A stretch of 64,000 bases of DNA from the NCBI GenBank assembly GCA_003215775.1, contig QCJW01000001.1:62001-126000 (forward strand), given 5' to 3'. Origin of the DNA: Prochlorococcus sp. AG-409-G20. GTDB taxonomy: Bacteria; Cyanobacteriota; Cyanobacteriia; PCC-6307; Cyanobiaceae. A program made the translations under genes and the position numbers. Shown in pieces: positions 2,705-27,915 of this stretch (the first letter of the stretch is position 1; every line of letters starts with the position of its first letter). Under the pieces are notes generated by a model. It saw only the letters and a program-made list of their open reading frames with translations. It did no database searches and was not told the origin of the DNA.

Positions 2705-4018
2705 ATGCCTAAAACTGTTAAATCTCGGAGACAATTACCGCAAAAGCTCTTAGTAGCGCTGCTATGCATAGTCTTTTGCGGATTATTCTTTTCCCCTCCA
2801 GTACTTGCCTTAAACGATGGACAAGCACTGGTTTTAGAAAGTTGGAAGCTTGTAAATGAAGGATATCTAAACAAATCCAGATTTGAAGAAGTTCAATGGC
2901 GCCGATTACGCCAAAAGGCTTTAGAAGAACCAATCACTACAAGCGAAGAGGCCTACTCAGCAATTGAATCAATGCTTCTACCCTTGGGAGATCCTTACAC
3001 CAGGCTGTTAAGGCCAGATGATTACACAGCAATGAAGGCAAGCAACTTAGGCAGTGAAATCAATGGCGTTGGGCTGCAATTAGGATCAAGGTCAGAAGAT
3101 GGAGAAATTGTTGTAATTGCCCCATTAGAAGGCTCACCAGCTGCAGATGCAGGGATCTTGAGTGGGACAACTTTATTGAGCGTAAACGGGGAGTCACCTA
3201 AATCTCTTGGCCTAGAAGCAACTGCTGCAAGACTTAGAGGCGAGACAGGTTCACAGGTTTTAGTGCTAATAAAACCACCAAATGGAGAACCTGAAGAAAT
3301 AGTTCTAGAACGCAGAAGTGTTGACCTCCGTCCAGTAAGAACTCGTAGGCTCAGGAATGAATCTCATACATTGGGATATTTAAGAATTACGCAATTTAGT
3401 GAAGGCGTGCCTGAGCAAGTCAATGAGGCCTTGCAGGAACTATCAGAAAAAGGAATAGAAGGCTTAGTACTTGATTTGCGAAACAATTCAGGCGGATTAG
3501 TTAGCTCTGGCCTTGCTGTTGCTGATGCATTCCTAAGTGATAAACCAATTGTAGAAACAAAAAATCGCGAGGGAATAAATGATGCAATTCCCTCAAACAA
3601 AGAAACACTTTATGAAGGACCAATGGTTACACTTGTGAACGGCGGAACAGCTAGCGCCAGTGAGATTCTTGCTGGAGCTTTACAAGATAACGAGAGGTCA
3701 ACTCTTGTTGGAAGCAAAACTTTTGGCAAAGGGCTAATCCAATCCCTTACAACACTTAGCGATGGCAGTGGATTAGCAGTCACAGTTGCAAGTTACTTAA
3801 CACCTAGCGGTAGAGATATACAAAATCTTGGGATAGAGCCTGATCGAACACTCGACCTTCCAGAGCCTCTGAATCCAGGCAGCACTGATGATAGATGGAT
3901 TCAAGATGCCGAGATTCTAATGGAAGCAAACCTTGATCGAAAACTACTAGAAGACAATACAAATCAAGAAAAAATATCGTCAGAGATAGAGGAAGAGATC
4001 GATTTAACTATTAACTAA
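2705..4018 (+). CDS. ctpA: Carboxyl-terminal processing protease (D1 maturation)
   Basis: Serine protease of the S41 family that trims the C-terminus of precursor D1 in the lumen so that the Mn cluster of photosystem II can assemble. An upstream ATG at 2621 would overlap the petB start, so I chose the ATG at 2705, which opens directly onto a basic region and hydrophobic signal peptide ending near PPVLA. A PDZ domain follows (about residues 100-180) and then the catalytic domain with Ser317 in GGTASASE and Lys342 in KTFGKG, the Ser/Lys dyad 25 residues apart. 437 residues is normal. The stop codon lies inside a terminator stem. Confidence 0.93.
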   Translation: MPKTVKSRRQLPQKLLVALLCIVFCGLFFSPPVLALNDGQALVLESWKLVNEGYLNKSRFEEVQWRRLRQKALEEPITTSEEAYSAIESMLLPLGDPYTRLLRPDDYTAMKASNLGSEINGVGLQLGSRSEDGEIVVIAPLEGSPAADAGILSGTTLLSVNGESPKSLGLEATAARLRGETGSQVLVLIKPPNGEPEEIVLERRSVDLRPVRTRRLRNESHTLGYLRITQFSEGVPEQVNEALQELSEKGIEGLVLDLRNNSGGLVSSGLAVADAFLSDKPIVETKNREGINDAIPSNKETLYEGPMVTLVNGGTASASEILAGALQDNERSTLVGSKTFGKGLIQSLTTLSDGSGLAVTVASYLTPSGRDIQNLGIEPDRTLDLPEPLNPGSTDDRWIQDAEILMEANLDRKLLEDNTNQEKISSEIEEEIDLTIN

Positions 4019-4032
4019 ATCGATCTCTTTAT
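3993..4032 (+). terminator. Terminator hairpin at the end of ctpA
   Basis: A perfect inverted repeat has arms of about 14 bases (3993-4006 and 4016-4029) around a 9-base loop, followed by a T-rich tail. The right arm begins with the ctpA stop codon TAA at 4016-4018. The tail ends only six bases before the ATG of the next gene. This looks like an intrinsic terminator, although it could also occlude the translation start of the following HD gene. Confidence 0.75.
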
Positions 4033-4038
4033 TTGAAT

Positions 4039-5292
4039 ATGAAATCAAGAAACTACCACGACCCACTACATGGTGGAATGGAATTAAATAATGACAATGA
4101 AGAAGAAAGAATGATAATGAGGTTAATTGACTCTATGCCATTTCAAAGACTTCGACGAATCAGACAACTTGGACCAGCATTTCTGACATTCCACGGAGCA
4201 GAATCCAGTCGCTTCACACATTCACTAGGTGCCTTTCATATTGCCAAGAAAGCTTTCAAGAAGTTAATAAAAATAGAGCCTAAACTGAAAGAACATAAAG
4301 GAATACTTTATGCATCTGCTCTGCTCCATGATATTGGTCATGGACCACTTAGTCATAGCAGTGAAGAAATATTTGGAATAAAACATGAACAATGGTCAGC
4401 GAAAGTCGTCAAAGAGAACAACGAAATCAGCAATGCTCTTGAAGATTTTGAGGAGGGTACAACTAACAAAGTTGCAGAACTATTAGGAGAAGGGAAGGCA
4501 CCTAAAAAGGTAATTAAGAGTCTTATCAGCAGCCAATTAGATTGTGATCGATTGGACTATTTATTACGAGATAGCTATTCAACTGGAACACATTATGGTC
4601 AACTAGACCTAGAAAGAATTCTTTCAGCATTGACTCTTGCGGCAGATGGGGACCTTGCTATCAGTCCAAAAGGACTAATGGCAGTAGAACATTATTTAGT
4701 CGTAAGAAGTCTCATGTATAGAAGTGTTTATAATCATAGAATTAATGAGGTATGCAACTGGATTCTTGAAAAAATAGTACGAATGGCCCGTATCTTGGGT
4801 CCCCAAAAAGTATGGGCAGATGATTATATGAAGATCTGGTTATGGTCTCCTAACGAAATAGACACAAATTCATTTCTAGAGAATGATGATATTCGCACTG
4901 GTTATCATTTCCTGCGCTGGAAAGAAGAGGCCCCCGAACCTCTTTCGGAATTATGCAAAAGATTTATCAATAGGGATCTCTTACAAGCAGTAAATATTAG
5001 TGAGATGAGCAATGAGGATCAATTGCAAGCACTTGTAATTGCAAGAAAGCTCGCAGAAAAGTCAGGGTTAAATTCAGACCTTACTTGCGGACTTCGGCAT
5101 CAAAAAACACATGGCTACTACCCTTACAAAAGTGGACTTCGTTTATGGGATGGAGTTAGCTTAAAAGCACTTGAAGAAGTATCCCCGTTAGTGAAATCTC
5201 TTATCTATCCAACTGGGGCAGCTTGGTTAATTCATCCCAAGCTAATTCATGTGGAATTCAAGCAAGAGCTTGAGCAATCCTTAAGAAACTGA
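4039..5292 (+). CDS. HD-domain phosphohydrolase (dNTPase/YwfO-like)
   Basis: Metal-dependent phosphohydrolase of the HD superfamily, related to deoxynucleoside triphosphate triphosphohydrolases. The ATG at 4039 is preferred over a TTG two codons earlier. From that start, a metal-binding histidine is in SRFTHSLG (about residue 61), His97-Asp98 in LLHDIGHGPLSHSSE, and a downstream aspartate in DCDRLDYLLRD, the H..HD..D pattern of the family. The 417-residue length fits this subgroup. The substrate cannot be told from sequence. It follows ctpA after a hairpin and precedes minC by 15 bases, so it may be co-transcribed with minCDE. Confidence 0.85.
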   Translation: MKSRNYHDPLHGGMELNNDNEEERMIMRLIDSMPFQRLRRIRQLGPAFLTFHGAESSRFTHSLGAFHIAKKAFKKLIKIEPKLKEHKGILYASALLHDIGHGPLSHSSEEIFGIKHEQWSAKVVKENNEISNALEDFEEGTTNKVAELLGEGKAPKKVIKSLISSQLDCDRLDYLLRDSYSTGTHYGQLDLERILSALTLAADGDLAISPKGLMAVEHYLVVRSLMYRSVYNHRINEVCNWILEKIVRMARILGPQKVWADDYMKIWLWSPNEIDTNSFLENDDIRTGYHFLRWKEEAPEPLSELCKRFINRDLLQAVNISEMSNEDQLQALVIARKLAEKSGLNSDLTCGLRHQKTHGYYPYKSGLRLWDGVSLKALEEVSPLVKSLIYPTGAAWLIHPKLIHVEFKQELEQSLRN

Positions 5293-20924: not shown

Positions 20925-21860
20925 ATGTCCTCTATCCCTAATGCGGCGCTTCATTTTGGGGCTCAATCAATAGTTGACGGCAATGCATCCTATGGAAAAA
21001 CTAGGGTATCCAAAAGCACTCAGATCAGCTATTTCCTTCATTGCAAAGCAGGCTGCATGCCTGGCCAAGCTGAACTATTTAGGACTGACTCCTTAAGCAA
21101 ACCTGATTTTGGAGAGCCAATTGATGAAAACAATATCACTAGATCTTTTAAAGAAAAAAATCTGATCAGACTTGGAATTCCAAAAGGACCTAGGGCTATT
21201 GATTCTAATCTTTATCCATACACCTATGATAAATATGAACCCTATGATGATGACTCATTAAACATAGCTTTGAAAGCCACATATCGTCAAATCTATGGTA
21301 ATTTTAATCTCATGGAAAGTGAGCGGCCAAAAGATTTAGAAAGAAAGCTTAGAAATGGTGATTTAACAATTAGGGATTTCGTAAGATTACTTGCGAAAAC
21401 ATCCTTTTATAAAGAACATTATTTTGAGAATGTAAACCAACAAAGATCTATTGAACTTAATATTAAACATATCCTTGGGAGGCCACCTATAGGCCAAGAG
21501 GAAATCATAAAGCATGTACAATTGATATTTAATTATGGATTTGATTATCATATAGACACTCTGATTGATTCTACTGAATACCTAGAAATATTTGGCCAAG
21601 ATATAGTTCCTTATCCAAGATGTTGGAATTCTCCTTGCGGAACAACAACTTCTAGCTTTAACAAAGCTGCAGCATTAGCAAGAAGTTTTGCAACAAGTGA
21701 TAATGCAATTCACGGGAGAAAAACTTCACCTGAGGCCAAGGGAGGCAAAAGTCAGATCCTAGATAGCTTGGTTAATTTTGGGAATGGAAACACAATAAAA
21801 CTTCCTGAGCATATGATGACGACTAAAAATGAGCATGCAGCCAGCATGCTAAAAGGTTAA
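20925..21860 (+). CDS. ppeC: Phycoerythrin-associated linker polypeptide
   Basis: Phycobilisome-type linker related to the Mpe linkers of marine Synechococcus. The Pfam PBS-linker domain occupies roughly residues 95-220, with ALKATYRQIYGN, LRNGDLTIRDFVRLLAKTSF, NIKHILGRPPIGQEE and DYHIDTLIDSTEYLEIFG. The N-terminal extension carries Cys40 and Cys44 (FLHCKAGCMPGQ); some Synechococcus Mpe linkers bind a bilin through an N-terminal cysteine, so these are candidate attachment sites. In an organism thought to lack phycobilisomes, this single linker probably organises or tethers phycoerythrin. First gene of ppeC-orf62-cpeS-cpeT. Confidence 0.88.
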   Translation: MSSIPNAALHFGAQSIVDGNASYGKTRVSKSTQISYFLHCKAGCMPGQAELFRTDSLSKPDFGEPIDENNITRSFKEKNLIRLGIPKGPRAIDSNLYPYTYDKYEPYDDDSLNIALKATYRQIYGNFNLMESERPKDLERKLRNGDLTIRDFVRLLAKTSFYKEHYFENVNQQRSIELNIKHILGRPPIGQEEIIKHVQLIFNYGFDYHIDTLIDSTEYLEIFGQDIVPYPRCWNSPCGTTTSSFNKAAALARSFATSDNAIHGRKTSPEAKGGKSQILDSLVNFGNGNTIKLPEHMMTTKNEHAASMLKG

Positions 21861-21936
21861 TGATTACGCAATTGGATTGAGTTACAACCAAACAAACACC
21901 TACAGCAATTCTTCTTTAGTTAAATTCGTTCTAACT

Positions 21937-22125
21937 ATGTCTCACTTTCGTCCACCTTCCAGCGAAAGACCTGGTGACCAGTCTTCAAAAACTCCATCTG
22001 GGAAAAAAGTACCTATGGCTATGTCAATGATGGTGGATTCAATGGTTAGAATGATCCAAAAAGCAAATAAAAATGAATTAGACTTAGAAAACGAAGAGAA
22101 TAGTGAAACAGTGAATGAAAATTGA
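21937..22125 (+). CDS. Small methionine-rich protein in the phycoerythrin locus, unknown
   Basis: I do not recognise a family. A TTG at 21877 would give 82 residues, but the ATG at 21937 gives a compact 62-residue protein starting MSHFRPPSSERPGDQ. The middle (VPMAMSMMVDSMVRMIQKA) is a methionine-rich amphipathic helix, and the tail is acidic (ELDLENEENSETVNEN). Its last 11 bases overlap the start of cpeS, which suggests translational coupling and a function tied to bilin attachment or phycoerythrin assembly. That link is context only. Confidence 0.65.
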   Translation: MSHFRPPSSERPGDQSSKTPSGKKVPMAMSMMVDSMVRMIQKANKNELDLENEENSETVNEN

Positions 22126-22651
22126 GCAATTCATTGCTCAAAGTGAAGGCGAATGGCAATCAATGAGAAGTGGACACTCTCTAGCATTCCGTCAATTTGA
22201 GCAAGTTATTAGCCTAATTACAATCAAGAGAATCGAAAGTAATCATCCAGATGTTATTAGTTTACTGAATTCAAACAATAAGTTAAAAGGAGAGCTAAGT
22301 ACTCCTTTTCGAATTAATTGGAAATCAGAAAGTGATTGGAATGACGATGATTTATCAAACAATGGTGAAGGGAGTTGCATCTTAGTTCCTTTAAAGAACA
22401 CATCAAGAGAGGGGCATATATTAAGAAACAAAGGCTACTCAGAGAACTCACAAGTCGTCTCTTCATATAAATTCTTAGAAGATGGCACCTTTGTAATGTT
22501 GACTGACTACATTAATTCGATTGCAGAAGAAAAGATATGGTTTATATCTGATAATGTTAGGTGTCGTTCTTCTGTTGTGAGAACATCCAAGGGCTCTGGA
22601 ATTTTACAAACATCATTTGCATCGGAAGTTAGAAAGATAGAGTGCACGTAG
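22115..22651 (+). CDS. cpeS: CpeS-type phycoerythrobilin lyase
   Basis: S-type bilin lyase with a lipocalin-like beta barrel; in phycoerythrin-containing cyanobacteria CpeS attaches phycoerythrobilin to the beta-82 cysteine. The 178-residue protein has the family pattern FIAQSEGEWQSMRSGHSLA near the N-terminus, then FRINWKSESDWN, and the C-terminal EEKIWFISDNVRCRSSVV. Its start overlaps the preceding small gene, and cpeT follows after seven bases. Confidence 0.88.
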   Translation: MKIEQFIAQSEGEWQSMRSGHSLAFRQFEQVISLITIKRIESNHPDVISLLNSNNKLKGELSTPFRINWKSESDWNDDDLSNNGEGSCILVPLKNTSREGHILRNKGYSENSQVVSSYKFLEDGTFVMLTDYINSIAEEKIWFISDNVRCRSSVVRTSKGSGILQTSFASEVRKIECT

Positions 22652-22658
22652 ATATATT

Positions 22659-23294
22659 ATGAATAGTCTTGAGAATGAAGATTTAGTCAAATTTTGCAAA
22701 ATATTATCTGGTGTATACAGTAATTTTGAACAGGCTCAAAAAGAGCCGCATCTATATGCACATATTAATATCTATTTTATTCCAATTTCCTGCGATATGT
22801 TTAGAGCCCCCACATTCTATTCGGAGCAATCTTATGATTACTCACCATGGACACCTTATAGACAAGCTATACACAAAGTCATAAAAAGAAAAAATTTATT
22901 CATTGTCCAAAATTTTAATATTAAGAATGCAGAAAGACTTGCAGGCTCTGGAATTCATCCTGAACTACTTAGATGTTTCAACAAAGATTTATTAAAAGAA
23001 AGGAAAGGTTGTTCAATGATATTTAAAGAGATAGATAATAAAAAATATTCTGGGGAAATAGAGAGGGGAAAATCATGCATTATCAAAAAAGGGAATAAGC
23101 TCACTTATTTAAAAAGCACAGTAGAACTTGATAAAAACAAATGGATTAGTCTAGACGAAGGTTTTGATATAAAAACTAATCAAAAAATTTGGGGTTCAGA
23201 ACATGGGGCTCTACACTTCAAAAGAATTACCAATCTCGAAAGTAAAGTCAATCAATTATGGAATATCAACGATCAACTAGGAAAAGACTTCTAA
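22659..23294 (+). CDS. cpeT: CpeT-type bilin lyase
   Basis: T-type lyase of the CpeT/CpcT family, which attaches a bilin at the distal beta cysteine (position about 155-165) of phycobiliproteins. The 211-residue product has FCKILSGVYSNFEQAQKEP at the N-terminus, HINIYFIPISCDMF, and PTFYSEQSYDYSPWTPYRQ, the family core; WGSEHGALHFKRI closes the barrel. It is convergent with cpeY, with only six bases between stop codons and no terminator visible. Confidence 0.88.
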   Translation: MNSLENEDLVKFCKILSGVYSNFEQAQKEPHLYAHINIYFIPISCDMFRAPTFYSEQSYDYSPWTPYRQAIHKVIKRKNLFIVQNFNIKNAERLAGSGIHPELLRCFNKDLLKERKGCSMIFKEIDNKKYSGEIERGKSCIIKKGNKLTYLKSTVELDKNKWISLDEGFDIKTNQKIWGSEHGALHFKRITNLESKVNQLWNINDQLGKDF

Positions 23295-23300
23295 TCCAAA

Positions 23301-24626
23301 TCAGAATGAATTAATCAATTGATTAACCTTGAATCTAACAAAAATATGAGAATCACTTTTACAACTACTAAGCAACTCCATAAGTTCATCGCGGTTTTTT
23401 CCCAGAAGCTGAGTCTCTAATGAAATCAAGCAGGCGAATCTACACACCCAAAATGGTGTCTTGTCCTCATTTAACCAATTTTTAATAAAAGACTTATATT
23501 TTTTAGGTCCTATTGACATAAGATTCATAATAGCTGCTGGTTTAAATTTTATATAATCAGGCCATTCTTGACTCAATGCAGATAAAGAAATCATTTCTAT
23601 TTTTTCTTTTTGATCTTTTCCCCATTTGTCCTTCAAAAGAAATAACATTAAAAAGAAATATAATGCTCCATAATCTTTACTAGCGCTATCTAGGGAAGGG
23701 TACAAAAAAGGCCATATGTGTTGAGTTTCCATATTAATTAACTTCTTCAAGCATGGATAAGATCTAGCAAAGTCAGTATTAAATAAGCCATCAACTAACA
23801 ATTCAATATTAGATTCCGAATCATAGTCATAGATCATATCTAAATTATTTGGATCATCTATAATTAAAGATTGCACGGTTGAAAGAAGCTCAAGATTATT
23901 TACTGAAAGCTTCTCAACAGGCCAGAGTGCTTCTAAGGCTTTGATGCGAAAGATAGGCGCAACAGGTGCTTTTAGAACAAAGAAAAGCAAATCAGAAGCC
24001 TGGGAGTCAATTACATCATGAACAGCACAATGTCGATCATTTTGATTAGGTAGAAAAAGATGGTTCTTCAAATCTGATATATTTTCATGGGTTCCACAAA
24101 GCCTGGAAACTGCTGCTATTGCGGCTCCCTTAACGCTAATCGAAATAGAAGTATCTTTTATCAAAAGATTTATCTTTGGAATTGCAGATTCCACGCCCAT
24201 AAGAGCAAGACTTTGAATTATTAATCTTCTATTCTGGTCCGGGTTATCTAACAAGTGAATTATATCTATATGCAATTTAGGATTATCACAACCCAATTCC
24301 TTCAGAGCCCAGACTGCATTCTCAACTAGATATTTATCATTACTTTTCAGACAATCAGCAATCAAAGGAATTGCATTCTTGCAATCTAGTTTAGCTAGGC
24401 TATCTACAGCTTTTCTTTTAGCGATTAGAATTGGTTGCTCAGTGGATTGTGATTCGAGCACTCTTAGCAAAGCATCCTCAGTCTCCTGGCCAGGATATTT
24501 AGCCAAATGAAAAACAGCCTTGTAATAATCACTGGACAGCTTCAAATCGGCAATTGGCTTCTTAAGAATCTCTAAAGCAACCTCTTTGGACAATAGTGGG
24601 AGATTGTCAAAATTACCAACTTTCAA
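23301..24626 (-). CDS. cpeY: CpeY, HEAT-repeat bilin lyase
   Basis: E/F-type lyase built of HEAT-like helical repeats. CpeY in Fremyella attaches phycoerythrobilin to the alpha-82 cysteine of phycoerythrin, aided by CpeZ. The 441-residue length matches CpeY. Visible repeats include KAVFHLAKYPGQETEDALLR, AVDSLAKLDCKNAIPLIAD and AVWALKELGCDNPKLH. The corresponding target here is Cys73 of CpeA. Transcribed leftward, divergent from the MpeX-like gene with 203 bases of AT-rich spacer. Confidence 0.85.
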   Translation of the reverse strand: MKVGNFDNLPLLSKEVALEILKKPIADLKLSSDYYKAVFHLAKYPGQETEDALLRVLESQSTEQPILIAKRKAVDSLAKLDCKNAIPLIADCLKSNDKYLVENAVWALKELGCDNPKLHIDIIHLLDNPDQNRRLIIQSLALMGVESAIPKINLLIKDTSISISVKGAAIAAVSRLCGTHENISDLKNHLFLPNQNDRHCAVHDVIDSQASDLLFFVLKAPVAPIFRIKALEALWPVEKLSVNNLELLSTVQSLIIDDPNNLDMIYDYDSESNIELLVDGLFNTDFARSYPCLKKLINMETQHIWPFLYPSLDSASKDYGALYFFLMLFLLKDKWGKDQKEKIEMISLSALSQEWPDYIKFKPAAIMNLMSIGPKKYKSFIKNWLNEDKTPFWVCRFACLISLETQLLGKNRDELMELLSSCKSDSHIFVRFKVNQLINSF

Positions 24627-24829
24627 GTTTTAAGCTAAAAAAATATCAAAATCATTTTAAATGGTCGAACAAAAAACTTATATTTACTTAATGCTTATTA
24701 AGAGTATCCAAACATGGTTGATTGGATAGTATTCATGAAATATTCTCAAATTAAATTTTTATATTTTCCATAGAATAAGGTAAAAAATTGCTATTTTATA
24801 AATAATCAGTCAAGAATCACCAAAGGCCA

Positions 24830-25726
24830 TTGTATCCAGGCAAACCAAATCCTATTAAGCTTGATGAATTCAAACTTACCGATCAAGAAGCAGAGGAACT
24901 TGCCAACGAGTTAAAAGCTCAATGCCAGAAAGGTATAAGACCTAGGGAAGACTCATATCAAATAAACCGACTAATTGCTGGATTGGGAGATAAAAGAGGT
25001 CTGTTAAGAAGAACTTTCTCTGAAAGCCTTGGTTTAATTGGCAAAGAAACCTTACCAGCACTAAGAGAGGTTCTTTTACACCATCCAAATGTCACTGTCA
25101 GAAGAGCCGCTGCAAAAACATTAAGGCTAGTAGGAGACGAAAAGGCTCTACCAGACCTCCTAAAAGCCCTTTTAAATGACCCTGACCCTGTCGTACAAGG
25201 CTCATCAGTAGGAGCCATGGCAATATTTGGGGCAAAAGCCGTAGAAGAATTGCTAAAAGTTCTGATCAATTCCAATCACACTGAAATGCAATATGGATTG
25301 GCAACATGGGGGCTTGAATTTATTGGGTCTCAAGCCCCAGAATCACTTAAGAATGCAGCTAAATCAAAGAATCCCCGTATTAGAGCTGCTGCAATAGGAG
25401 CACTTGGAGAACAAATACATTACTTATCAGATCATTCTGCTAAAGAACTAGTCATAAAAGCCTTAGAGGATACTGATCAGAATGTAAGAACATCGGCTAC
25501 TCGACTTTTGGGAGAATTCGAAGAGAAAAATCTTATTGAAAAATTACTGATTCCCAAATTATCCGATACATCTCAAGATGTCAGAAAGCATGCAGCAATC
25601 TCCTTAATGCGAATAGATTCTAAAAAGGCATTATCAGAACTAGAGAAAAATCTTGCTGATGAAAAAGTTATTGAAGTGCTAAAAGTCTTTAAACTAGCAA
25701 TTAAAAGAATTAGAGAGTCTATATAG
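24830..25726 (+). CDS. mpeX: HEAT-repeat bilin lyase, MpeX / CpeF-MpeU-like
   Basis: A 298-residue E/F-type lyase relative with PBS-lyase HEAT repeats: RAAAKTLRLVGDEKALPDLL, VQGSSVGAMAIFGAKAVEEL, RAAAIGALGEQIHYLSD and VRTSATRLLGEFEEKN. The N-terminal MYPGKPNPIKLDEFKLTDQE resembles MpeU/MpeV/CpeF-type proteins; CpeF ligates the doubly linked bilin at beta-50/61. In SS120 the gene at this position has been called mpeX. The start is a TTG; no ATG is near. Opposite in direction to both flanking lyase genes. Confidence 0.7.
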   Translation: MYPGKPNPIKLDEFKLTDQEAEELANELKAQCQKGIRPREDSYQINRLIAGLGDKRGLLRRTFSESLGLIGKETLPALREVLLHHPNVTVRRAAAKTLRLVGDEKALPDLLKALLNDPDPVVQGSSVGAMAIFGAKAVEELLKVLINSNHTEMQYGLATWGLEFIGSQAPESLKNAAKSKNPRIRAAAIGALGEQIHYLSDHSAKELVIKALEDTDQNVRTSATRLLGEFEEKNLIEKLLIPKLSDTSQDVRKHAAISLMRIDSKKALSELEKNLADEKVIEVLKVFKLAIKRIRESI

Positions 25727-25737
25727 GCAACTTATCA

Positions 25738-25759
25738 TTGCTTATAAAAGCAAATTTTA
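25738..25759 (+). terminator. Possible weak terminator of the MpeX-like gene
   Basis: TTGCTT (25738-25743), loop ATAA and AAGCAA (25748-25753) make a six-base stem followed by ATTTTAT. It lies between the convergent stops of the MpeX-like gene and cpeZ. The stem is AT-rich and weak. Confidence 0.35.
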
Positions 25760-25771
25760 TTAGTCTTAGAA

Positions 25772-26377
25772 TTAATTATTTAATGCACGAATTGCACCTT
25801 CGCGAATAAACAGATCTCGCTGAGGATCTTCAATAATTGTTCTCAGGCACTCCTGCGCTCTATAGTCTTTAACCTCACCCAGTGCAATGATTGCAGTTGA
25901 TAGTCTTAGTAAGTTATCATCCTTAAAATTACAAATATTTAGAAGGTATGGCAAACCCTGGGAACCTATTTGCCTTAAGAGTGGAACTACAGTTAGTATC
26001 ATCTCAGGGCTATCCTTATCTATGGCCAGCTCTATTATATTCATAACTTTATCCGGAAAAGAAGCAAAACCTTTAGATGCAGAAATCTTGACGAGAACCT
26101 TTACGCAACTAGTCTGAACTAAAGTACTTTTTGTTTTTAAAAATAATTCAATCAGTGCGTCATATGCCAACTCACCAAAGCAACCTAGGGCTTTTATAGA
26201 CTTTCTTCTAATATTAGTATTATCTTTCTGGATGTTATCAATCAAGCGTATCAATGAATCATCAGGCCAATACCTAGCCATATTGACAAATGCGCTTTCA
26301 TTTATATTTGGATTAGGATGCAAAAAATCCTCAAACAAATCCTCTAGTTTCGGCTTTATTTCTTCTTGTTCCTTCAT
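25772..26377 (-). CDS. cpeZ: CpeZ, HEAT-repeat bilin lyase partner
   Basis: A 201-residue HEAT-repeat protein of the CpeZ/NblB group. CpeZ acts as a partner or chaperone of CpeY and CpeF in phycoerythrin maturation. Visible repeats are RRKSIKALGCFGELAYDALI, TSCVKVLVKISASKGFAS and RLSTAIIALGEVKDYRAQEC, closing with FIREGAIRALNN. It lies 125 bases downstream of cpeA on the same strand, so it may be read through from cpeBA. Confidence 0.85.
   Translation of the reverse strand: MKEQEEIKPKLEDLFEDFLHPNPNINESAFVNMARYWPDDSLIRLIDNIQKDNTNIRRKSIKALGCFGELAYDALIELFLKTKSTLVQTSCVKVLVKISASKGFASFPDKVMNIIELAIDKDSPEMILTVVPLLRQIGSQGLPYLLNICNFKDDNLLRLSTAIIALGEVKDYRAQECLRTIIEDPQRDLFIREGAIRALNN

Positions 26378-26502: not shown

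Positions 26503-26997
<495 letters not shown>

Positions 26998-27022: not shown

Positions 27023-27915
<893 letters not shown>

Follow-up and report, generated by a model that had tools for sequence, protein, structure and literature searches.

According to PMC9916406, low-light (LL) Prochlorococcus strains produce functional phycoerythrin (PE) in small amounts, and the PE-III gene cluster of these strains (Hess et al. 1996, 1999, cited in PMC2327270 and PMC9916406) is the closest described system to the locus studied here. This system has a single PE as its sole phycobiliprotein, an alpha subunit with one bilin site, and cpeB-cpeA together with the lyase genes in one cluster. All of these features were also found in the window, that is, the whole stretch of 64,000 nucleotides from Prochlorococcus sp. 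AG-409-G20 that was analysed, and the absence of other phycobiliproteins extends to the source genome. The window differs only in representing a new lineage, in which the loss of the alpha-139 bilin site is independent of that in the main losing clade and the IPRDM flank of the lost site is still intact in CpeA. LL phycoerythrin with one alpha site, the gene cluster, and MpeX, a putative lyase restricted to LL Prochlorococcus and uncharacterised (PMC7948978), are already described. What this comparison adds is that alpha-139 is widely retained while the lyase set stays the same, which we did not find stated in the literature but which may already be published. Our main reading, to which we assign a probability of about 0.85, is that the window carries an intact PE-III maturation cassette of LL Prochlorococcus, whose lyase set is the same regardless of alpha-139.

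The phycoerythrin cluster in the window

The genes in the window are ordered cpeS-cpeT-cpeY-MpeX-cpeZ, followed by cpeA and cpeB (Table 1), and the ORFs of the first five are all uninterrupted. The preliminary description had listed CpeS, CpeT, CpeY, CpeZ and an MpeX/CpeF-like protein at this locus, an inventory that is supported by both domain matches and similarity. The CpeS domain match covers residues 3-173, which is full length, with 188 bits (cut-off 23.3), and the CpeT match is also full length, with 184 bits (cut-off 21). The best model for CpeY, NCBIfam NF058505, scores 245.6 bits, below its curated cut-off of 600. The relatives with solved structures are CpcT (4o4o) for CpeT and MpeQ (7mc4) for CpeY. 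Identities to the Synechococcus proteins were 51-59% for CpeS (about 30% when compared with the second S-type gene associated with PE), 41-49% for CpeT (vs 28-31% for the paralog) and 33-43% for CpeY (vs about 25% for CpeY-like paralogs). Since the CpeY-like paralogs of Synechococcus are clearly farther, the window protein was taken as the CpeY ortholog, by similarity only. CpeZ is 27-35% identical to Synechococcus CpeZ and its place is conserved in related clusters, most of which also contain homologs of the unk6-like ORF. The PpeC-like linker was found in most other LL clusters, and no match to it was seen in the cluster region of three loci (L055, L058 and L059) of the MIT 0701-like group g29.

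Table 1 Genes of the phycoerythrin cluster, with positions in the window.
Feature	Position	Strand	Evidence
Phycobilisome-linker-domain protein, PpeC-like	20925..21860	+	PF00427 6.4e-43
Small unk6-like ORF, upstream of cpeS	21877..22125	+	Position as for unk6 in PMC2246261
cpeS, S-type lyase, predicted PEB attachment at beta-Cys82	22115..22651	+	PF09367 1.3e-55
cpeT, T-type lyase, predicted site beta-Cys163	22659..23294	+	PF06206 2.6e-54
cpeY, E/F-type lyase, predicted site alpha-Cys82 (Cys73 here)	23301..24626	-	NCBIfam CpeY 6.8e-73
MpeX (CpeF/MpeV/MpeU family), predicted lyase, perhaps lyase-isomerase, doubly linked beta-Cys50/61 bilin	24830..25726	+	HEAT repeats
cpeZ, HEAT-repeat chaperone-like partner	25772..26377	-	PF13646 1.1e-12
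cpeA	26503..26970	-	NCBIfam CpeA 8.2e-80, over cut-off
cpeB	27023..27571	-	NCBIfam CpeB 4.6e-95, over cut-off

The MpeX of the window lies in the same clade as the MpeX of LL Prochlorococcus, with no categorical difference between them. This Prochlorococcus clade of 64 rows (SH-aLRT 97) is apart from CpeF, MpeV and MpeU, and adjoins MpeU-type sequences (SH-aLRT 90). Identity of MpeX to the best Synechococcus-type members of the family among the fetched loci was 38-51%. CpeF and MpeV, the lyase and lyase-isomerase of beta-50/61, belong to the same family, but the window protein is on a separate branch that is nearer to the MpeU type, and position 141 of its predicted substrate, CpeB, is occupied by Ile and not by His or Leu. 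In one other cluster (L068, genome G150), the MpeX gene at 3626-4530 on the minus strand has one frameshift in a poly-G run, and Cys50 and Cys61 of CpeB are intact. This case was set aside as a natural knock-out, because the genome is an 82%-complete draft and the frameshift is possibly an artefact, the alternative being a fresh pseudogene.

In the source genome (1.50 Mb in 30 contigs, 83% complete), the only phycobiliprotein genes are two PF00502 genes, cpeB and cpeA, and there is one S-type, one T-type and one MpeX-family gene. Counting lyase genes elsewhere in this 83%-complete genome gave no further recognisable lyase, and closed relatives gave the same lyase counts. Other HEAT-type matches were proteins of 269 aa (contig C11), 257 aa (C16) and 161 aa (C7) and, weakly, an ATPase-like protein on C2. 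The cross-genome search covered the C11 and C16 proteins. All 17 genomes tested have the C11 protein, high-light and PE-less genomes among them, and the C16 protein is also encoded by two LL genomes that lack phycoerythrin, so that neither looks like a phycoerythrin lyase and both were rejected as hidden PE lyases. Two adjacent bilin reductase genes on C17 were taken as pebA-pebB, and a third reductase gene is located on C4.

Bilin sites and their predicted lyases

The cysteines of CpeB in the window are at positions 50, 61, 73, 82, 109 and 163. The bilin cysteines Cys50, Cys61, Cys82 and Cys163 (the last being Cys165 in other PE), which the preliminary description had given as kept, were read directly in the window sequence, and Asp54 is kept as well; the bilin cysteines and Asp54 of CpeB are invariant across the LL clusters. 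CpeA has cysteines at 73 and 87 only. In the alignment of CpeA from the window, 57 Prochlorococcus and 12 Synechococcus clusters, Cys73 aligns to alpha-82 and Glu130 occupies the alpha-139 column, which confirms the earlier assignment of a single alpha bilin site, with alpha-82 kept and alpha-139 lost. Around the site, the 30 clusters that keep alpha-Cys139 have a nearly invariant motif, R-x-R-V-C-[IV]-P-R-D-M, with which Synechococcus CpeA agrees at the Arg, Cys, Pro, Arg and Asp positions. The neighbours of alpha-139 are eroded in the 28 losers, among which Arg133 is kept only in the window. Residue 124 of CpeA is His or Tyr in the keepers and Phe or Tyr in the losers, and may line the alpha-139 bilin pocket. 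In the CpeA of one locus (L056, genome G026), a Cys immediately precedes the alpha-139 position (RDKCNIS), either as a shifted site or by chance.

CpeT acts at the distal beta cysteine. Among the characterised homologs of the other proteins, CpeS acts at beta-82, CpeY at alpha-82 and CpeF/MpeV at beta-50/61, and CpeZ is chaperone-like (PMC7948978, PMC9705338). By homology, CpeS would load beta-82, CpeT would load beta-163 and CpeY would load alpha-82 (Cys73), MpeX would make the doubly linked bilin at beta-50/61 as a relative of CpeF/MpeV, and CpeZ would keep the subunits soluble; the site of each lyase was thus inferred from homologs. Two residue patterns bear on the bilin colours. CpeB-141 is Ile in every LL cluster. 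At this position in Synechococcus, His blocks and Leu permits the isomerisation of PEB to PUB, with Ile not mentioned there (PMC9705338), and the Ile suggests phycourobilin at beta-50/61. In 57 of the 58 clusters, the window included, CpeY has Tyr-Gly at the positions of Tyr318/Val319 in MpeQ, as mapped from the 7mc4 alignment. This pair is that of the non-isomerising lyase MpeW and suggests phycoerythrobilin at alpha-82. According to a review, LL phycoerythrin has a phycourobilin-like site on its alpha subunit, which sits uneasily with CpeY as a non-isomerising lyase.

The lyase set and the alpha-139 site

To see how the lyase set relates to alpha-139, the cluster was compared in the window, 57 other Prochlorococcus-type genomes and 12 Synechococcus-type genomes. 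Alpha-Cys139 was kept in 30 of the 58 Prochlorococcus-type clusters, which span 20 GTDB genera, and was lost in 28. The set of cpeS, cpeT, cpeY, MpeX and cpeZ was common to retainers and losers, with the few misses being at contig ends, and the retainer genomes, several of them complete, likewise carry single S-type, T-type and MpeX genes. The cultured Prochlorococcus sp. MIT 0701 keeps alpha-139 with the same lyase set, as do other named organisms, and no retainer-specific extra HEAT protein was seen among the matches listed. Not all Prochlorococcus phycoerythrins have a single alpha site, since these 30 clusters keep two. In a tree built from the cluster proteins other than CpeA, the alpha-139 state changes at least five times, and the window pairs with a cluster that keeps alpha-Cys139 (G045, SH-aLRT 95). 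These repeated losses and the state of G045 indicate that the loss postdates the fixing of the lyase set and altered nothing there; in the window, the loss is relatively recent. At the lyase positions that are invariant in retainers, the window deviates at 0-1 per lyase. The relaxation of a single lyase after the loss of alpha-139 was rejected, because the mild excess of deviations in the larger losing clade hits MpeX, CpeY and CpeA alike; the high g2 deviation values stem from a contig split. The cassette is one inherited across LL Prochlorococcus and is unresponsive to the loss of alpha-139, a loss that made no gene dispensable.

Two records in the sample are unusual. On one contig (QCFW01000017.1, L141/L142), two inverted copies of the lyase genes were found, most likely a single-cell amplification chimera. 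A MAG named Prochlorococcus marinus MIT 9215 (L133) carries a Synechococcus-type PE cluster with His at CpeB-141, and its label is probably wrong.

The alpha-139 keepers, MIT 0701 for example, have four lyases for five sites. In these organisms, one of the four lyases would serve two sites, or alpha-139 would be loaded without a dedicated lyase, or the site would be empty. We tentatively propose, at somewhat less than an even chance, that one lyase fills both alpha-82 and alpha-139, most simply CpeY, whose predicted site is also on CpeA, or that alpha-139 is loaded without a dedicated lyase. If this is true, the repeated loss of alpha-139 with unchanged lyases would be a trace of such loading. 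It is improbable that alpha-139 is instead served, in the retainers, by a dedicated lyase of another family or by a housekeeping gene. Our lyase searches covered homologs of the S, T and E/F lyases only and we found no alpha-139 lyase named in the literature, both of which leave room for such a gene, but within the 12-kb cluster region no gene was shared by every retainer and missing from every loser, and the HEAT proteins encoded outside the cluster, on C11 and C16, are found, as noted above, in PE-less genomes. The alpha-139 keepers, a cultured strain included, represent a small natural system in which attachment at alpha-139 is testable.

The preliminary description had further argued that the lyases appear pruned to match the list of sites exactly, with no extra lyase for the lost alpha-139 site. 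The latter part stands in that no such lyase was found, but it is uninformative, because the literature names none and relatives that bear the site are also without one. One-for-one pruning, in which a dedicated alpha-139 lyase disappeared with its site, would account for the four lyases and four sites counted in the window, and Synechococcus with alpha-139 does have more lyases (PE-bearing genomes mostly have four S-type and two T-type genes); high-light genomes with a derived CpeB also keep CpeS alone. We consider it very unlikely nonetheless, as the identical set is carried by the 30 alpha-139-keeping clusters, complete genomes included, and the second PE-associated S-type gene (cpeU) is absent from retainers and losers alike, so that its loss is not tied to alpha-139. 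Lyases counted against sites in a single genome do not show co-evolution.

Lyases and phycoerythrin reduction

Lyases and sites do go together in high-light Prochlorococcus. In the six high-light genomes examined, CpeB is derived, keeping Cys61 and Cys82 but lacking Cys50 and Cys163, and CpeA is absent. CpeS was the only lyase seen in these six, and no T-type or MpeX gene was found in the four of them that were searched. This system is like the window in combining CpeS with a beta subunit that keeps Cys82, and unlike it in having no CpeA, in the loss of Cys50 and Cys163 and in retaining CpeS only, lyases and sites having been lost together. Neither a phycobiliprotein nor an S-type lyase was found in one high-light genome (G263, 100% complete) and two LL-like genomes (G184 and G232, 96-97% complete). 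These three possibly represent complete loss of phycoerythrin, and both LL cases could be assembly gaps. Lyases thus disappear along with phycoerythrin, tracking the loss of sites only coarsely and not site by site.

Such losses, together with the frameshifted MpeX of the G150 cluster, would also fit a phycoerythrin that is a decaying relic with its lyases persisting by inertia, but this is very unlikely for the window, in which all genes are intact. The bilin cysteines and Asp54 do not vary among LL clusters, the sampled lineages share about 80-94% identity in CpeB vs about 35-60% in the lyases, and the source genome has kept pebA/pebB. The earlier view that phycoerythrin is still made rather than being a relic is therefore reasonable, in line with the functional PE reported for LL strains.
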